A stretch of DNA of 64,000 nt, taken from Heliocidaris erythrogramma. Its lineage: Eukaryota > Echinodermata > Echinoidea > Camarodonta > Echinometridae. The stretch lies in the NCBI GenBank assembly GCA_025617745.1, contig CM046853.1, forward strand, positions 4,336,873 through 4,400,872, given 5' to 3'. Of this stretch, positions 24,401 through 48,400 are shown one piece after another. Both the position numbers and the translations under genes were made by a program. Within the stretch, counting starts at the first letter, position 1. Every line of letters begins with the position of its first letter. The notes under the pieces were generated by a model, which was not told the DNA's origin, made no database searches, and worked only from the letters and a program-made list of their open reading frames with translations.

Positions 24401-27400
24401 AACAAATCAAGATTGAAGCTGAGTGTTGAAAACAAACATGAAGACAAACAAAAAAGAGAGTCTTTTGGTCATACTATAGAAGCTTTGCATCAAACGTTAT
24501 TTTCACAATTTGAATATGCAAGCATTCACTTTTGTACTTTGCACTGGATCCGTGAAAGTTAACTTCATAACTGAAATACACTGTAATATCACTGATTGAG
24601 TAGAATTCAGTGTTTTCTTTCTTCATGAACATGTGCAACATCTATGATAAAACCGTTAGCAGATTCTTATGGATGATATTGATGTAAGGTTAATCTAATA
24701 TCATGATGATGATTTACCTAGACTGTTCCACTTCTCAATCATCTCAGTTGTCATCTCAATCCTCATGTCACCAAACTTCTTTTTGAGTCTCTCTTGCTTG
24801 GCTGGTGTGAAGCTTTCTAACTGAAGCACTGGCTGAATGATGAAGTATACTGCTAGCTCAAAGTACTGAGATCTCATCTATACACAACAAAATAAGTTAA
24901 GATACTACATGTATTAAATCTTAAACAAAACAACCATCCTTAAATCATTTCAATTTGGAAATAAAATGAGTACAAAATATGGGCTTTGCGAACATTTTTC
25001 AGACTAGTTTAAAAAGAAAACTTGTTAATTACAATGCAGAAATAGTAAGGTTACAGGAAATTGCATATTACAAGATTGTGTAGTTTTCAAATAGGGAAGA
25101 TTAAAGTGTCTTTACTATGACATTGCATATGTATAAATTAAGTCCCTGAAGGTTCAATACAAGCTTGGCCAGCCAAGAATTCCATTAGACTGAAATGATG
25201 TGTAAGGAATAAAATTGAAGAATAATAAGCTATTCGACATCCAGTTTATATTCTTGTATAGCCACCTAGTTGGTTAAAGTAAAATATTTCCACAGGAAGT
25301 TAAATAAATATGATGCAACTTTATGTGTCAAAACTGAATTTTGAATGCAAAATGCTTTCTACATTGAAAGATATTATTTCCCAATCGGTAGAGATCCTGT
25401 CCTATTCCAACGATTACATCCTAAAGAAATGTTCTGAACTCTTCCCCAGCAGGGAACATTTCCTTTAATCTACATGTAATTCCTGATTGATGCACTATAC
25501 TTATACTGTCTAGACCTGGGCCCCATTTCATAAAACTTGTTATCAATAACAAGTCACAACAACCATTATTAGCTACTACAATCATAGCATTTGATTCATT
25601 GAGAGCGCATTTGTCATTGATAACATGTTTTATGAAACGGAGCCCTGATTTGTTTTGAATACATACCCTGTTTATGTCATCATGATTGAGATCTGAGCAG
25701 AACTTCTTGATGGCTGAAAGAATGACCCTGTAAACATGAATCATAAAATAGAACACAATGTAAGAGCTAGCATTGAGGGAGAATCATCATAATCCATTTC
25801 ATGCAACATCGATAGTCATGGATGACTGCCAAAAGACAAACTTACATTTTAATGTTTAAGGTTTGTACATTAATAAGATAATGATCCTCTGAGGCCGACT
25901 CATCCTTGAAATACATGTATATAGAGAGGGACAGGCAAAGACTACAGGGCCACATTGCATAAAACTTACCATTAATGGTAACTTTGCCATCAATGGTAAC
26001 TCCAATGGAAACCTTGATTTTGATTGGCTGTTGAGTGATGTTACCATGGTAGTTGCCATTGATAGTAGAGTTACCATTAATGGTAAATCTACAATCAATT
26101 AAAAATCAATTAAAAACCATTAATGGTAACTCTACTATCAATGGCAACTACCATTATTGGTAACTCTACTATCAATTAAAAATTAATGTACCTGCCTTCA
26201 AATATCCTCCCAACATTGCACAGAGATTAAAGGCTAAAATTGACAAATTCTGAAAGAATGACCCTGGTGAAATGAATTATACATGATATAACATCAGTCA
26301 TAGACATGAGGGAGCATCTATTAACCATCTTCATTGATATGAATCCTGCAACCATATCAGTCTAAAATAATTATATGATAATGAATGGCCTTGAGGGGGA
26401 TACAAGGATATATCGCAAGAGCTATGAGCATATTTCACGAGTCGGCACGACGAGTGAAATATTTTCAAAGCAAGTGCGATATACCCTTCTGTTCCACGAA
26501 TGAAAAGCCATTCAATATAATTGTTATTAATTGTATGTAACCTAGTTCCTCAATTTTCACCATTACATTGCCAGGTCATCCGGGTACTTATGCGCAAACC
26601 ATGAGATACGCCAATTTTTCTGGTCGCCTGAAAACCCTTCATACAAATAATAATTCTCAATAATGACTGCTATACAAACCCACATTTACATTTTGTGCAA
26701 GAGTAAACTTCCCAACCACCATTATGGCTGAATAGTCCTTAAGATATAAACCTAAAGCCCACCACACACTATACGATACCACTGCGATCTGATTTTGAAA
26801 AAAATTGCAATAACATTAGATATGGAAACTTAAACACCTATAAACATCCTGATTGAGGTTCTGAATAATGATATGAATACTAACAAGAGCCCCAGGGGAC
26901 ACGACGCTCACCTGAGGTGGATCAATTCACATCTGGTGCATGTTCTTCCTAGCACATGAACAACTTTCATTCTTCATCTATAGAGGTATCTCTATACACA
27001 ATACCAAGTCTGAGCTTCCTACCAAGTTCGGTTAAATTCCAATCATGGGTTTTGGAGAAGAAGCTGAAAATGTAAAAGGTTTATGGATGGCGGACAACTT
27101 GCCCCACCCCCCCCCCCTCCAGTATGTTACCCCCACAGACCCCCTATAGGGCCACCCAGAAAAAAATCTCCATACACAATACCAAGTCTGAGCTATTCCT
27201 GGTACTGGACAAGGTGTTTGAAATTTACAGAGCTTTTACACTTGGGGGCCCTCCCCCTGGGCCCCCCTGGGGACCACATGTACCATTTTAGCAACTTTGG
27301 GTCCCCTACCCCCAAGGATGATTCCTACCAAGTTTGGTTGAATTCCGATCATGTGTTTTGGAGAAGATCAGAATGTACATTTTGCCTGGCAGCGCCCCCC

Positions 27401-30400
27401 CCTCCAGTATGTTACCCCCACAGGGCCCCTATAGGGCCACTCAGAGAAATTTCATGAACAACATTCATTCTTCATCTATAGAGGTATCTCCATACACAAT
27501 ACCAATGAGCTATGCCTGGTTCTGGAGAAGAAGATGTTTGAAATTTACATAGCTTTTACAATTGGGGGCCTTCCCCCTGGGCCCCCCTGGGGGCCACATG
27601 TACCATTTTAGCAACTTTGGGTCCCCTACCCCTAAGGATGATTCCTACCAAGTTTGGTTGAATTCCGATCATGTGTTTTGGAGAAGAAGATCAGAATGTA
27701 CATTTTGCCTGGCAGTGCCCCCCCCCCCTCCAGTATGTTACCCCCACAGGGCCCCTATAGGGCCACTCAGAGAAATTTCATGAACATTCATTCTTCATCT
27801 ATAGAGGTATCTCCATACAAAATACCAAGTCTGAGCTATGCCTGGTTCTGGAGAAGAAGTTGTTTGAAATTTACATAGCTTTTACAATTGGGGGCCCTCC
27901 CCCTGGGCCCCCCTGGGGGCCACATGTACCATTTTAGCAACTTTGGGTCCCCTACCCCTAAGGATGATTCCTACCAAGTTTGGTTGAATTCCGATCGTGG
28001 GTTTTGGAGAAGAAGATGAAAATGTAAAAAGTTAACGGACGACGGACGACGCACGACGGACGACGGACGACGCACGACGCACGACGCATGACGCACGACG
28101 GACAAATTTCCATCGCAATAGCTCACTAGAGCCATAGGCTCAGGTGAGCTAAAAATCTAAATTGGGTGAATTGCAAGCCTTCTTGTGGGAGGAACAGCCA
28201 AATCGGCTTTGAATCATAGACAATGGCACAATCAGTATGGCGTTACTGTGATTTGGCACCAATTTGGCTTTCCTTCCGAGAAGAAGGCTTCCTATCCCCC
28301 CAAATTCCTATTTCATCATTCATATGAGTATCCAGAAATTCAATCATTAAGATTTTACTTGTTTGAATGCTTACATGTATATCAAATGCTGGCAAAGTCT
28401 TCCCAAATCGGATCATATTGAGATCGTACAGTGTGCAGTGGGTAATACATTAGGGGAAAGGTCAGAGATTATAGGACAAAAAGTAACATACCTGTTGACA
28501 ACCATTCTCATAGCTGCCCAGTCCTTTGCATAGATATCCTTGGTGACACACTCAGCAAAGAGCATGAGTATACCATTGAGAAACTCTTGTCTATAATGTA
28601 AGTTTGAGAAGTGTTCTGTCAACTGAACATAATGTTGCTCCTTCATCAAACGTAACATCTCCATCAGGCATGTGATGCAACGGGTCTGGTCAAAGAAATA
28701 ATCAGTGCATATTCATTACATTTCTATCATGAATTACAGAAATATGCTTTAAATATACAGCAGTATCATAATATACATAAAATTTCACAAAAATGGCAAG
28801 AATTACTTGTGTGTTGACAGATGATAATGGTGAATATTCTAATTTTATATTAAGTTGTCTTTCTAAAATTTAAGAATATACATAGTGAAAAAAGCAACAT
28901 ACTTCAGAAATCTTTTTCTCCTGTGTTTGGAAATAAACCATTTTGATTTATCACACTTCCTAACATATCTAAGAAGCATAAATTCATAATTTCCTCAAAC
29001 TACTCCTTTAAAGTTCATCACATTAAAAAAAATACTTTGGTACACGTACATTCAGACAACAAATCAATCTGAAAAGAGATTTTGCACATGATAGCACAAA
29101 GTTTACTATATAGAAGAATGCACGAAGGAACATATTGCAATGACAGATGATGAAGTCATAGGTATGCTATAATACATAAACATATGATGGGAACAAAGAG
29201 AAAAGAAATTCATTTACAGGGGAAACTCGATATAACGAGGCCGTCAGGACCGAAGGATTGCCCTCGTTATAGGCTTTATCTCGTTATATCAGAACATATA
29301 TAAAAATGCACATATGGGACTAGATTCTACATGTACACTAATAATGAATGTACACATTCTTCTGCCGCCGCTTATGTATTCATTTGAAAGCTATGAAGGC
29401 ATTAATAATATGTTATTCTCAAATTAGCTAATACAAAATCGGATCATGTCGGAATGCGTTAAAAGCATTATTTTCAGATGTTGAGTTACCGACTAAGAGT
29501 CAAGTCCATCACACTTCCGCACTGAATATCGGGACGGCGCGTGTACTATCAGCATAGAGCATACTCATGGTATGAAAAAGACCCTCTCATTCACACTTCG
29601 GGGCCGGTCTCCCTGCACTGTGACATGAATAAAAAAAACGCTCCCTGTGTTGTGATACGGATAAAAAGATGCTGCCTGCGCTGTGTGATACAAATAAAAA
29701 GACGCACCCCGCTTCACATCGCGATCTCTACTATATGCTCGATCATGTGTGTGATTCTTCAGCTGAATGATTTCTGTCCATTTGAGGCACATGAAATTTG
29801 CTTGCTCGTTATAACGGGAATGATTACCAATCTTTTTCTTTGATTTAGAGGCACAGGATTTAGCTCATTATAGCTGATGCCTCATTATACATGTAGCTGA
29901 CCTCTCTATAAAGGTTCGTGCCGCCATAGAATTACACGCAACTAAATTCGGGACTGTGACAATGTTCTCGTTATAGCTGTTACCTCGTTATAGCCGACCT
30001 CGTTATGTCGCGTTTCCCCTGTACAATGATCAGAGCACATTTTATTCCAAAGATTTAATGTAGGTAACACACAAGAAATATGTATCTGCATGATATTGGA
30101 ATAACATATTCAGAGCACAAAAGAGCATACCATCAGCTAAAAAGTGCATACTATAGAAAGCAACAACAAAGATACCACCAGTACTTCGGTTTTCCACTTT
30201 TTCTTCAGGCAGCAGTTTGCATATATACATAATCTGTCATCATCTGGCCTGTACAGGTTCTCATAAAACAGAAATGTACACAGCCTTTTTATACCTTTTA
30301 AAATCTTTTTCTCAGTGTTCTTTATTTCTTTTCTTCTTTGCAGCTGACACCACATGTATCACTAACACAAAATTTACAAGACAACATCGTATTTATGGCA

Positions 30401-39400: not shown

Positions 39401-42400
39401 TGAGAAATACTGCCTCTATACGAATGATTATTTTGCAAGAAATGAAATGCAGCATTACAACATCAAAAACATTCATGGTAAATGAAATACCTAAATCCTG
39501 CTGGAACATTTATATTATATTGGATGGCTCTGAATGGGATACCGGAGAATATTCCACGAGTTAGGGCCAATATTGCACGAATCGAAGATGAGTGCAACGA
39601 GTGGAATATTTCTGGTATTCCATGAAATAAAGCCATCTAACATAATTATTATTATCTATACCCTACAGGAAAATGATTTAGAACTTAATAAAAATCACTT
39701 TAACCAACCACATTCAGTTAATAGAGCCCCTCATCATACTTCATTGTGATCACACAAGTTTAACTTAACCTCTTTATGACGTCATGTGCGTATGTGTGTA
39801 TGCGTTGCATTGTTTGCGCGCACCAGAAAAACCAGACAAAATACGGCATAATATTGCACGGCAAGTTTAGCACTGTAGCCTATGGGGAATTCAGCGATCC
39901 GTGCAATATGCTCTCATATTGCACGCGCAAATCAAGCGGACAAAAATATGCGTTTTTAATGCGCCGCTAAAATGCCTCATATAGGTAATAATGAATATTA
40001 TTGAATACTAAAGCCTCAAGATCTGATCAGAAAATTACAAGGATTTTATCTATTGATAACATCATTGTAATGATTGATATCTTGATCTGTCATGTTATCA
40101 TGATCACACATTTTCCATTAATAATGAAAAACTACAATGTACTCCTAACTGTATTGTAAATGAATCTAAGACTGACCCTGACAATGTCTTGACCAGTGAC
40201 ACTGGTGAGTTTCTCTAGGATAGCATGTAGTCTGTCTGGATGTTGTCTCCATTTCAGCAAGCCAAGCAGGTTGACTATTGAATGGAGAATGAAAACAAAT
40301 CACAAGAGGATAACAACTCAATTTCCACAATGACTGAGAAGCTATAAAGGTCTAAATTTGGGGTTTGAATGAGGCGTCTACATGTACATACTTCCCATCT
40401 CCTACTTTAAATTACAATCATCAATGTTTGTAATAATTCCAAGTAAAAATTATTTCTAGTTTCTCGTCCCCACCCGCATACTTTTTTGCATCCTTCTCCT
40501 TTTTTTTGTTATTTGATATTTTTGTTTGAAAAAACAACAACAAACAAACAAAAATTTAAACCACCAAAATTTTGCTGCAGACCCCTAAAATTAAAACTTG
40601 ATGCCTTTGGGGGGTTTAAACGGACCCCAGAAGAATATAAATATAAAGGGAAGCCATGCCTAATAGCATTTGTATGTGCGGCGGCCATCTTGGAAAATCA
40701 TCAACTATCAAATAACACGGTACACCCTCCTCCTCCTCATTTTCGTAAAATACCGGCAAGAAACTACAAATCAATTTTACTTGGCCTAATACTTACTGTT
40801 CTGAACTAGTTTTGTTGAGCAGATGACTGTTTTGACAGTGAAAGTATCTCTCTGATTCAACTCATACATGTCATTGCTTGTTGCGTTGCCCTTCGCAACC
40901 ATGTCAGCTGAACAGTATGGCAGCTTCAGGTAATGCTCAGGATTCTTGAAATCATGGTGATCCGTACACTGTTAGGAAAGATAAAATAATTCAAATGACA
41001 ATTATTATTGAGCAAAACCTTGGACTGTTATGACACAAACATTTCAAGTTTGTACATTTGTGATTTTGTTAAATTTACATCTAGAAGATAACAATCTTGT
41101 AGTAAAGATAAAACTTAACAAGAGCCCCAGGGGGCACGACGCTCACCTGAGGTGGATCAATTCACATCTGGTGCATGTTGTCTCTAGCACCACCAGGAGA
41201 TATGTTAGAAATTGAAACAACTAGGAGGATGTACATGAGATGATGTTAGAAATTAACATAATTCCCCCTCCCCCCACCCCATGGTCTACAATGTCATGTA
41301 TTATTTGAATCTCCTACATCTAAGGATGATTCCCACCAAGAGTGGTTGAATTCCGATCATGTGTTTTGGAGAAGATCAGAATGTACGTTTTGCCTGGCAG
41401 CGCCCCCCCCCCCCCCAGTATGTTACCCCCACAGGGCCCCTATAGGGCCATGCACTCAGAGAAATTTCATGAACAACATTCATTCTTTATCTATAGAGGT
41501 ATCTCCATACACAATACCAAGTCTGAGCTATGCCTGGTTCTGGAGAAGAAAATGTTTGAAATTTACATAGCTTTTACAATTGGGGGCCCTCCCCCTGGGC
41601 CCCCTGGGGGCCACATGTACCATTTTAGCAACTTTGGGTCCCCTCCCCCTAAGGATGATTCCTACCAAGTTTGGTTGAATTCCGATCATGTGTTTTTGAG
41701 AAGATCAGAATGTACATTTTGCCTGGCAGCGCCCCCCCTCCAGTATGTTACCCCCACAGGGCCCCTATAGGGCCACTCAGAGAAATTTCATGAACAACAT
41801 TCATTCTTCATCTATAGAGGTATCTCCATACACAATACCAAGTCTGAGCTATGCCTGGTTCTGGAGAAGAAGATGTTTGAAATTTACATAGCTTTTACCA
41901 TTGGGGGCCCTCCCCCTGGGCCCCCCTGGGGGCCACATGTACCATTTTAGCAACTTTGGGTCCCCTACCCCTAAGGATGATTCCTACCAAGTTTGGTTGA
42001 ATTCCGATCATGGGTTTTGGAGAAGAAGATGAAAATGTAAAAAGTTAACGCACGACGCACGACGGACGCCGGACAAATTTCCATCGCAATAGCTCACTCG
42101 AGCCTAAGGTGAGCTAAAAAGGTCCCTAGTTCCTATAGCATGCCTGATTGTAAGCTCCTTGCCACTATCAAAAATATAAGATAATCCAGCAATTTATTCA
42201 ATCTCCCAGTCTCTCTCAGCACAGGCAAACTGGTAAAATTTATTTCTTGCAATTTACTCTGCCACTGATTATGGCTTGTGGAGCTAAAAAGTTGAGAGTA
42301 TTAATTTCCATAGCGCATAGAGGTATTGTTTTATATGTGATACTGACTGTGAATATTCATTAAGTTATTATTATTATCAACTACATTTATGTATGAAATG

Positions 42401-45400
42401 TATACATAAACCGTCTCTCACACTATTTCAATGCTATAACTATGGTTAGAGATAAAAATGCAGCTTACCTTATAGACAAAGAGACTATGGGTACTATCTT
42501 CTACAGCAGTTCCATCTTTCTTCATGAGTGGCATAAAGGCCATTGCAAACAGACGCTTCTCTCTTCTCCCTGTTAAAACAATTGTGAAATTCATTATTTT
42601 TTTAGCAATGTTATAAAATGAAAGTCTACTTTTATTGGTAATTTTTTTTTAGTTCAGAAGACATTCAACTCTATTGGCAATTAAAATATGCTCTCTTTCC
42701 CCGACAGAAAAGAAATTTAAAGGAACATTTGCATTAAGTGGATTTAGAAGCAATCAGGCTCTAATATGTAGAGGTGTCGTGGTCTAGTGGATACGTCACC
42801 GGACTGTGGATCTCGTGGTTCACGGTTCGAGTCCCGCCGTGGCACTAATGTCCTTTGGCAAGACATTAATCTACATTTGCCACTCTCCACCCAGGTGTAG
42901 TAAATGGGTACCTGGTAGGAATTTATTCCTTGAATGCTTTCAGCGCCTCATAGGGCAGCTGGGCTAAAGCCAGGGTAATAATACTTTGGCGCTTAGAAAC
43001 ATTGTATTAAGCGCAACATAAATGTTATGTATTATTATTATTATTAATATAAGTTCAATTACTGAAGTAAATAGGACCTCATATAATATTTCTCCAAAGA
43101 GCATAATTATTACAATCAAACATTATTTTACTCAAACAGAATCAGTATAAGGGGAAATCAAAGTAATGTATACTGGCACTTTGAGCAAAATATCTGGGAC
43201 ATATAATCAGTTCCTTCAAAACTTTAATGTCGATGCCTAAATCAAATATTGAAAGTAATAAGAGAACATAAAAAGTAAGGAAAAAGGTTCTAATATACTG
43301 ATGCATTGAAGCTTGGTTGAAACTGAAACTACACCGTATAGTGGTAAACCTTTTGTATCACATCCATCATCTACAGTTCAAATTCAATAACACACAAAAG
43401 TGACATGATTTGTACCTTCATAAATGCAACAGCACACTCATATTTTTGAAGCTCAACAGGAAATGTTAACCGCAAGTGGTGTACTGCGAATAACTGGCAC
43501 TTATTCCTGTCATACATACATGTACATGTACATGAAGATTTAGCTGATATACTGTATTATTCTCACTATCAATATAAATAGGTTTAGATGTAACAGATCA
43601 AAATAGCTCAATGTATGAATTAATCAAAAACTATTTACTCAGGTTAAGTACACATATACATGTAGGTTCCATCAACTTTTTCACATCATTGTGCAAGAAT
43701 GGGGAAAATAAAAAAAAAATGGGGAATATAAAACAAGAATCACAAATATCACTGAAGGTGATTAATACCCCTGCCCCAATGTGTGTGCTAAATTTCCTGA
43801 GCATTGCTCCAAAAACAAGGAAGTGGTTTGATCTGCAATATTTTCCTGTTTTATTGCAATATTCCGTTGCCATGCAGTTTCCGACACATTTAACAAATCT
43901 GTCTTGCACATCTCCATCCCAAGAAAAATGTGTGTGCCAAATTTCATAAGCATTGCTCGAAAAATGAGGAAGTAGTTTGATCCACAAGATTTCAACATGA
44001 TTTATTGCCATAATATGCCGTTGCCATGCATTTTTCGACACATTTGACAAATATGTCTTGCACATCTTCATCCCACGACCAATGTATGTGGCGAATTTCA
44101 CGAGCATTGCTTGAAAAATGAGGAAGTAGTTTGATACGCAAGATTTGTAATGGACCGACCGCCTGACCGTACGCTGATTCCTATATACCCCCTTCAAACT
44201 TCGTTTGGCGGGGGTATAATGATAGCAGTATAAAATAATTGATATGACTCAAGTGTTTATTCAGAACAAGAGCAAATGCTGATATTATATTCGGAAAATA
44301 GCGTTAAACACGGACATAATATGTACTAAAATACTAAAGCTTTTCGACATGCACTCATCAGAGTTATTATATTGTTTCGTTTTCTGGCGTTCTGTTCATT
44401 CATGCGAATTTACTCTGATGAGTGCATGTCGAAAAGCTTTAGTATTTAAGTACATATTATGTCCGTGTTTAACGCTATTTTCCGATTTTGCAGTACCAAG
44501 CACTGATATTATATTATTAAATAATCATGATATTACATCAAATTAACATCCAAAATATGGTAATATATGTTCCTGTACTTTAGGGTGCTGAAATCTGTAA
44601 ATTAAAGCAAGTCATTAAACCATAGATGGACAAATATTCATGATTCACCACATAATTTCTTTCACTAGTATGATTATATGTTTACAAAATGGAGTTGATT
44701 AACAAATCAATGAATTAAACAAGCCTCACTGCAGCAAAAGTCTAGTATCGGTTTTCTGGATTGACACCCTTCGGTCCATATTCTACTAAAATTTGAATCC
44801 AATGCCAAGTTTAAGCTTTGTCTAAAGTCGCATTAACAAACTAGAAAGTGCTAAGTGTTCTCTTTGTTTAACACAACTTAGTCCAAGAGTCAGGTTTAAC
44901 TGAATCAGTAGAATGCAGGCCTTATAGTTTGGAGAATTCTGAATAAAAGACAACCTTCCCATCAGAGTATCAAGATGAAATATTGGATAAAGATCTAAGA
45001 TCAGACTTACTATTATCTCTTGAGTAATGTCTGAATTCAAAGCGTTTGTGGGTATCTTTGAAGCTGTCCATATTACATAAAGACCTGAGATCAGACTTAT
45101 TATTATCTCTTGAGCAGTGTCTGAATTCAAAGCATATATGTGTGTATCTTTGAAGCTGTCCATATTACATAAAGACCTAAGATCAGACTTACTATTATCT
45201 CTTGAGTAATGTCGGAATTCAAAGCGTATGTGGGTATCTTTGAAGCTGTCCATATTACATAAAGACCTAAGATCAGACTTACTATTATCTCTTGAGCAAT
45301 GTCGGAACTCAAAGCGTATGTGGGTATCTTTGAAGCTGTCCATATTACATAAAGACCTAAGATCAGACTTACTATTATCTCTTGAGCAATGTCGGAACTC

Positions 45401-48400
45401 AAAGCGTATGTGGGTATCTTTGAAGCTGTCCATAGGAACATTGAGTCTGACTAGTTCATTCCAGCGTGGGGCCTGAACGTGGAAATATACCACCGATCTA
45501 TACTCTGCCTCAGCTTCTTCATCATCTACCAGGCAGATGCAGGACTAAAGAACAAAAGATGGATTTTCTTTTTATAATTTGGCTAGTCATAAAGCAAATT
45601 TTTTTTATAGAGAATCAAAATTATAGTTAACTAGCTTTTTAAAACATATACTATATTCCATTTGAAATTTCTTATTCATGTTTAATACCAAACACTAATC
45701 AAGTTTCAAATATTACATCAACACAGCACACTATAACAAGAAGGACGTTGTGGCAGATTAGCCTTGTATGCAACAAGTTATCCAATAAAATCTACTACTA
45801 CTACTACTACTTGAAGCTCTATCATTTACAAATTCTAATTTTTCTATATGCTTCCTTCCCTTTCTGATTAAAGAAATGTGCTAAAGACTACGTCTTTTAG
45901 ATGCCATTAATTCTCTGTAGTTTGGCACTGATCCCCGGTTTTTTTTTTTCATAACAGTAATGAAAATAGCGAAATTTGTGCATCTGTAAAATCATTGGTT
46001 CATAATGATACCAATACTTTACCTCATAGTAGGTCAATCTATTGGCTAGAAAATGTGGAAATGAATATTGTGAAGAAGAGTTCTGTAGTATGAATAGTAG
46101 AAAGTGAAATTGACTTACGATCTTCTTCCATTTCTCATCAATTGTACACATGGTCACCTCAATGTTGCGCCCAGCGTTTTTGTCCAGAAATTCAGCTCTC
46201 TCCAGGGCAATGAAGAGATCATTCCGCAGGTCACCTTTACAATAATCATAAACAAATATACGCCTTAAAGATAAAGTTGAGTTCTGGTCATGAGATTGAA
46301 TTGTGAAAGAAAATGTCTCAAAGCAATTGGGAAAGATTGATTATATAGCAAATAAAAAATTGGTGTATGCTGTAAGGTTTTGGAATCACCAAAATGATAA
46401 GAAATTGACTAAATTCTACTGAGAGTCACATGCAGTGCACACAGAAATGTGTATATGGGACTGCACACAAATGTTCGGCCCGAACATTTCAGCTGTTTCT
46501 TGTCATATTTTGAATGTGAGAGCATTTAAAGAGCAATCCTTTTCAGGGAACATATCTACTACGATAATCTTCCAAACTAACATTAAAAAAAAAATTAAGA
46601 TTTTTCCCTTTCCCTTTAAGATGTATTTCAGTAGAGAATTGTAATTGTATATCTCTTTATTTCATATATAATATATTTCATTCAGCTTTTCTAACAATTT
46701 TTAACACTAAAACTATGTGGCTATACCCTGGATGAAACTGGGGGCATTTTTAATAATATGTTAATTACTTTTGAGATGTCATTACTGCTATCCACAGTTT
46801 CGATTTTCAGCAATCAATTACTTTCACATCCCAATAATTTGTTTGTTTCAAGGAGTTGATCATAATATGATCCTGTCAGTCAGAGAGTTTGTGCCCTTGT
46901 AATTTTATGAGAATACAGAGAGTAATAAAAGGATACTTTACTATCTTAGAAAGAGGAATAAACAATCAACAAATCATGAAACCATTCTACATAATGATAG
47001 ATATCAGACACAAATGCACAAAAAAGGATTTCTTTCAAATCAAGGGGGGTCAGTCATACGTGCCATTTCGTTATTAAACATATGTACAGTGTAAGTTAAA
47101 GATCTTTATTTCCTTGAGTATCTAGATGTTCTACAACTAAAACAGCAATTTCCTTTTCACTTCTCCAATGAAGACCATTCTTCCAATACAAAGATAAAAA
47201 CAGTTGAATCCTTCTATAGAAATACAGAGGGCTTTTTGTCATTTCTAATTTGATATATTTTTATTTGTTTTCTTATCCGCATGAATAGAACCCTACAAGG
47301 AAGAGGGAAGCTTAGAAGCATATCATGTGTGATATTTATTATCAAGCAAATCAGCAAAGACAAGATATCTATACCTACAAGCAAGTGTTAACCTGCATAG
47401 TGGTTATAAGACATATTGTCTTTTTGGAGCCAGAAGGGTGTTAACTCTGTACAAATGATAGGACTTAATGCCCTTCTGGCTCCAAACAGACGATATGTTC
47501 TTTACCCCTACTAACTTTTAGCAACACGGAGGATTACCTCCAAATCTTGTACTTAATAATTTGATGGATGAAATATGGAGATCTATAGAGTACCAAAGTG
47601 TGACGTCATCAAATTTTGATTTTTGTATTTCAGTATTTTTATGACCATATTTAGGTAGAGCATGATGGAAAACGTTCACACATCAAATTTGACATGAATC
47701 AGTTCATGGTGGCCCAAGTTATGGCTATATGAATATCTAATTAGCCCCATTGAAGTCAGTGTAAATTGGCCTGGTTCTTAACAGTTTAGAACCAGGCCAA
47801 TTTAACACTGACTTCAATGGGGCTAAGGAGGTATTCATGCGGCCATATCTCGGGCCCAATGAGCCAACTGCCATAAAATTTGGGCTCTGGATGTTTTTCA
47901 CCATGTTCCTTTGAGATATGGTATACAAAATGTCAAAATGAAAAAATAGCTTTTTGTGACGTCATCACTTCGGTACTCTATTACCATACCTGGCATGATG
48001 ATGTCACTGAATCCAAGCTTATGAGTGACACTGTGACCTTTGTTGAATAGAAGATGCTTTTCTTTCTTCAGGCTGTCTAGGTGACCATGTAGCATCAGTA
48101 ACTTGACTGTGATACCTATAACATTTAGAATCAAGACAGTCTTGATTATTACATGTTTTCTTCAAAGCAATTCAATTCTCGCTACCCCAAATACGCAATT
48201 TTGCCAACAGATGGCGTTTGTCATGCAAACCATGCATGCGCAGTGCTGACAATAACCAGATCGGGTCGACAAGCGTTTGTCTTTTTGCATTGAAAATGTA
48301 CACAGGTATCATAAAAATCCTCGAGTTTGAGTATCAATTGATCAACATGTTTGAAACGATACCATGATTTATTGAGACAATTGCTTGCATTTTCAAAATT

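Follow-up and report, generated by a model that had tools for sequence, protein, structure and literature searches.

An exon–intron boundary of a sea urchin Dock gene repeated five times in tandem, most likely as a mirage-type minisatellite

The minus strand of a 64,000-nucleotide stretch of the Heliocidaris erythrogramma genome (contig CM046853.1, positions 4,336,873 to 4,400,872; hereafter the window) carries a Dock gene, as deduced from Pfam and PDB-chain matches of its translated exons, in which one exon of the DHR-1 (DOCK-C2) domain leads into an array: the end of this exon, its splice donor and the start of the following intron occur as five tandem copies. It appears highly probable that this array is a near-neutral minisatellite of the type termed ‘mirage’, arisen by tandem duplication of the exon–intron boundary and spliced mainly from the first donor. 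A previous inspection of the DNA made without database searches, the sequence-only reading, had offered two interpretations. Of these, a neutral minisatellite derived from the edge of an exon is favored by colinearity with DOCK proteins, by the intron of a paralog, by decay within the array and by a precedent in amphioxus, whereas little beyond a slight synonymous excess speaks for an array of donors producing length isoforms. A change in the length of DHR-1 would be of interest because this domain binds phosphoinositides in DOCK1, DOCK2 and DOCK8 (PMC7893821). The array and the exons around it, in window coordinates and with donors numbered in the order of transcription, are as follows.

44981..45433, minus strand: five-copy tandem array (minisatellite), unit composed of 61 nt of exon end and 29 nt of intron start
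45344..45433, minus strand: copy 1, exon part 45433–45373, donor GTAAGT with first base at 45372
45254..45343, minus strand: copy 2, identical to copy 1 at 90 of 90 positions, donor with first base at 45282
45164..45253, minus strand: copy 3, two substitutions, donor with first base at 45192
45072..45163, minus strand: copy 4, 92 nt owing to a 2-nt insertion, with ATAAGT in place of the donor GTAAGT at 45100
44981..45071, minus strand: copy 5, merging into unique intron, donor GTAAGT with first base at 45010
46119..46234, minus strand: DHR-1 exon before the array exon, translation running from GDLRNDLFIALERAEF to DEKWKKI, donor GTAAGT at 46118; 5' edge placed by eye, DOCK-C2 match below the curated cut-off
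45373..45544, minus strand: DHR-1 (DOCK-C2) exon of 172 nt with donor 1 at its 3' end, preceded by acceptor TTCTTTAG, ending in phase 1
42469..42569, minus strand: following DHR-1 exon, opening in frame with GRREKRLFAMAF, preceded by acceptor TTTTAACAG, donor GTAAGC

The five copies, their composition of 61 and 29 nt and the 90-bp period are as previously described, while the spacing, formerly given as 90/90/90/91 bp, measures 90/90/90/92 bp between unit starts and 90/90/92/90 bp between donors. Likewise, GTAAGT had been correctly located in four of the five copies (45372, 45282, 45192, and 45010), with the remaining one reading AT, and no further GTRAGT is found between 45544 and the next exon beyond these four array donors. 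Tandem Repeats Finder reports the array at a score of 787 and a period of 90, and no array of any kind in 200 dinucleotide shuffles of positions 44800–45700. Searching the species’ own genome (1.06 Gb in 26 contigs) with positions 44970–45560, skipping very common words, returned the array locus itself as sole match.

The product spliced from donor 1 matches the DOCK-C2 profile at 90.3 bits, well above the cut-off of 33.6. Of ten other minus-strand open reading frames (ORFs) run through Pfam, three match TPR_DOCK, two of them over the cut-off. With scores below the cut-off, one matches DHR-2 lobe A and two match lobe C (E-values between 0.0002 and 0.0014), and one matches DOCK-C2; the remaining three have no Pfam match. 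The gene is assigned to the DOCK family by its DOCK-C2 domain over the cut-off and by the TPR and DHR-2 parts that this strand encodes as well. Against DOCK1, a second Dock gene on contig C16 of the same genome reaches 99.7 bits and the window gene 79.3 bits. DOCK3/4 chains are absent among the PDB matches. The window gene, which resembles Dock3/4 in its motifs, may be a candidate for the DOCK-B (Dock3/4) subfamily, a placement reached by elimination only.

For identifying the ancestral donor, the conceptual splice products were compared with DOCK structures. With donor 1 spliced to the next exon, the resulting peptide aligned to a DOCK1 chain over 83 and to a DOCK2 chain over 90 residues with one gapped residue, and the donor-1 protein is colinear with DOCK1/2/5 apart from a single residue. 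The donor-2 product, in turn, gives two overlapping matches to DOCK chains which flank a 30-residue insert. Moreover, the Dock paralog on C16 has an intron within the same codon (the ninth, taking the F of FRH as number one) and likewise in phase 1, and no tandem repeat at the corresponding exon edge. To judge by these comparisons, donor 1 is the ancestral site, at an intron position which seems to predate the split of the window and C16 Dock genes. The proposal of the sequence-only reading that donor 1 would give the main product is thus supported by the colinearity with DOCK1/2/5, the position and phase of the C16 intron, the decay of copies 4 and 5 outlined below and a published preference for first donors.

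Compared with copy 1, copy 3 differs at two alignment columns, copy 4 at nine (seven substitutions and the 2-nt insertion) and copy 5 at seven, all of them substitutions. Taking copies 3 to 5 together, the exon-derived part is changed at 11 of 183 positions and the intron-derived part at 5 of 87, i.e., at about equal rates. Reading the alignment, these copies have accumulated three amino-acid changes, one frameshifting insertion and one dead donor. One substitution replaces Cys by Tyr in copy 3, so that the strand THIRFEFRHCS, supposed to recur with each copy, is found unaltered in copy 2 but reads THIRFEFRHYS in copy 3. Copies 1 and 2 are identical and copies 4 and 5 the most diverged, with three informative columns from which concerted evolution might at most be read. 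The decaying copies 4 and 5 are probably those of greatest age, and a duplication or conversion of recent date would have given rise to copies 1 and 2. Unit positions 40 and 47 occur in all four combinations among the copies, a pattern to be expected from exchange of sequence within the array or from recurrent mutation. The trinucleotide TAT is common to both sides of the unit junction (intron ...AATAT, exon ...CCTATGGAC), and the initial duplication may therefore have been seeded by this short microhomology. In copy 5, CC replaces the GT that the other copies show directly before the shared TAT.

A scenario accommodating these features would start with a tandem duplication of the exon–intron boundary that created the minisatellite in the Dock gene. 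The donor transcribed first would then be the one mainly spliced, on a first come, first served basis, leaving copies 2 to 5 to depart with the intron and to evolve near neutrally. Around copies 1 and 2, unequal exchange or slippage may keep the array turning over. Among the designed sequences of a large reporter library, splicing mostly chose whichever of two tandem donors of equal strength came first (PMC6783452), and amphioxus mirages were found to be regularly spliced by reverse transcription polymerase chain reaction, as their authors report (PMC3087553). Due to both, donor 1 can be expected to be the source of nearly all mRNA. An internal mini-exon running from a CTTAG to a later donor was also considered and rejected, as the acceptor-like site is weak when judged by eye and separated by only 16 nt from the donor within the same unit. 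No retrocopy of a spliced form appeared in the own-genome family search (9 matches from 13 scored candidates), although a dedicated protein search was not part of it; the window gene itself is represented there by two separate exon-wise matches.

The abundance of comparable arrays was estimated from 20 random 10-kb stretches of the own genome (of 60 drawn; four contigs, 199,500 readable bp). Arrays with periods of 40–500 bp number 15 in this sample and cover 3.4% of it; the window holds four, including the donor array, covering 3.7%. With an array coverage of about 3.4% in random DNA, an exon edge inside an array would not be rare here, before any selection.

Several findings, however, weigh against a near-neutral array spliced from its first donor. 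Arrays with a period of 60–120 bp, at least four copies and at least 85% match are missing from the 199.5 kb of random DNA, while the window has one, and the donor array is thus cleaner than most. Scored as entire proteins, the products of donors 2 and 3 reach 102.2 and 107.0 bits, respectively, with the DOCK-C2 profile, above the 90.3 bits of the donor-1 product. These higher values reflect multiple matching of the strand that recurs in the array and are no evidence for the longer products. Pairing with U1 is equal and modest, amounting to −5.6 kcal/mol for each intact donor versus −14.5 kcal/mol for the consensus, and the sequence from −3 to +6 is the same in all four. Furthermore, donor 1 has no advantage in predicted accessibility and is even the lowest of the five donors at the wider setting. 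The predicted unpaired probability is low for donors 1, 2, 3, and 5 alike (0.01 to 0.05), by which RNA accessibility was ruled out as cause of donor choice. With equal U1 pairing and no difference in accessibility to donor 1's benefit, the donors would be told apart by order and distance. Here, older in vitro work with duplicated donors points the other way, as the intron-proximal site was often preferred. If this preference were valid for the Dock array, splicing from donor 5 would result in a broken mRNA, a state hardly tolerated by selection. The reporter library resembles the array in that identical donors in series compete, but its designed pairs are only 2–77 nt apart and were assayed in human K562 cells (PMC6783452), whereas the four natural donors of the Dock gene are separated by 90–362 nt and have their flanking 61 and 29 nt duplicated as well. 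Finally, of the seven variable exon-derived sites, four are synonymous and three replacement in the frame of copy 1, an excess of synonymous changes over the unconstrained expectation of 0.2 per change (binomial P about 0.03). The synonymous sites at unit positions 36 and 40 split copies 1–2 or 1–3 from the rest, and these changes can be placed on the constrained copy-1 lineage itself. With this small sample, the excess may be taken as slight evidence for selection on longer forms.

Such longer forms are central to the rival reading that donors 1, 2, and 3 are all used and extend a DHR-1 loop by 0, 30, or 60 residues, which could alter lipid binding or stability of the domain. On the available evidence, this is unlikely. 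In its favor, conceptual translation agrees with the earlier statement that the three donors share one open frame: donor 2 is predicted to add 30 and donor 3 to add 60 residues without a stop, and the three intact donors are identical from −3 to +6 within near-identical context. Besides the synonymous excess, also the position of the insert is compatible with isoforms, as it is placed in the loop between the RFEFRH and LFAMAF strands and has a matched segment of the domain on either side. Against it, a period divisible by three combined with 10 open intron codons has a joint chance of about 0.2, or 1 in 5, so that preservation of the frame speaks only weakly for a function. Donor 5, of equal strength, would shift the frame so that translation stops prematurely within the next exon, the Cys-to-Tyr change is already present in copy 3, and amphioxus mirages are reported without disturbance of splicing (PMC3087553). 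A related possibility, which we regard as slightly more doubtful still, is that donors 1 to 3 are used in proportions governed by their order and that copy-number changes of a fast-mutating repeat add steps of 30 residues to the DHR-1 loop of a Dock exchange factor, varying among individuals.

A less probable explanation than use of the in-frame donors is splicing noise or regulated loss, where low use of downstream donors, chiefly donor 5, would lead to nonsense-mediated decay and copy number would tune expression. Consistent with this, donor 5 is intact and followed by a stop codon in the next exon, and every added donor would be an extra competitor. However, there is no specific sign of selection keeping donor 5, and donor 4 has decayed to AT; if joined to the next exon, this dead site would likewise give a stop. 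Just as improbable is an assembly error, either an expanded array or a misassembled shorter one. In its favor, copy 1 equals copy 2, so that either could be an artefact, and one mirage of the amphioxus draft genome appears aberrantly assembled according to its authors (PMC3087553). Against it, the private changes in copies 3, 4, and 5 demand at least four distinct copies, and an assembly of 1.06 Gb in only 26 contigs was probably made from modern long reads.

Other repeats are found in the same intron and elsewhere in the window. In the intron of the donor array and near it, a 154-bp period array of 2.4 copies (43778–44146) adjoins a CCCCGCCAAACGAAGTTTGAAGGGGGTATATAG stretch, and the same intron holds an inverted repeat with 74-nt arms (44291–44364 and 44412–44485; 99% complementary, 47 nt spacer) that looks like an element of the miniature inverted-repeat transposable element (MITE) type. 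Two further tandem arrays at 27166–28026 and 41313–42026 have periods of about 326 and 321 bp, respectively. Their ORFs share segments such as RNSTKLGRNHP and GDPKLLKWYMWPPGGP, by which they look like one dispersed repeat family.

Outside the window, contig C24 of the assembly encodes a COX1 gene with 11 in-frame TGA codons and is therefore regarded as mitochondrial. Its protein presumably resembles sea-urchin COX1 closely. One segment reads RMNNMSFW by the echinoderm code (AAA as Asn) and RMKNMSFW by the invertebrate code, and to our knowledge RMNNMSFW is nearly universal in animal COX1. The codon use of this gene fits the echinoderm mitochondrial code and, together with the protein, points to an echinoderm and most likely to a sea urchin.

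The closest parallels to the Dock array are the mirages described from amphioxus Adh3 and the globin genes BflGb6 and BflGb9, with units of 10–72 bp in Adh3 and about 150–160 bp in the globins and copies 81–100% identical in BflGb6 (PMC3087553). Many, but not all, of those copies carry splice signals, and the copies are homogenized except at cluster edges (PMC3087553). In the Dock array, too, the unit spans a real splice boundary, placed here by DOCK homology and the paralog intron, and GTAAGT is present in many but not all copies (four of five). Among the amphioxus cases, BflGb9 is similar in having an exon 3' boundary duplicated (PMC3087553). Hence, the Dock array is most likely a minisatellite of the mirage kind. 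It differs from the amphioxus examples in residing in a conserved signaling gene and in belonging to an echinoderm instead of a cephalochordate. In addition, its period is divisible by three and its frame is open, which makes extra in-frame isoforms possible.

Human genes in segmental duplications provide a second parallel, since internal tandem repeats are reported there at exon–intron boundaries, coding intron modifications with units of 62–126 bp included, and minisatellite growth in or at exon edges likewise alters gene structure (PMC2812944). Those repeats vary among recent paralogs and are supported by transcripts (PMC2812944), while the Dock array is a single locus read from DNA. Tandem duplication of a splice motif has also been proposed as a route to new introns (PMC2891723). 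Local duplication within a gene copies a splice motif in this model as in the Dock gene, but the intron of the Dock gene was already in place before the copies arose at its edge, and these multiply its donor only.

If classified correctly, the Dock array extends boundary-spanning minisatellites, reported from amphioxus and from human segmental-duplication genes, to an echinoderm, though further examples, also from echinoderms, may be in print. It represents a natural experiment on donor competition, in which four donors identical from −3 to +6 differ mainly in order and distance, three of them even within identical or near-identical context of 61 nt upstream and 29 nt downstream. The array thereby bears on whether first come, first served holds at distances beyond 77 nt and outside human cells. 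Should several of the donors be used, it would be a case of a minisatellite feeding stepwise variation in protein length.

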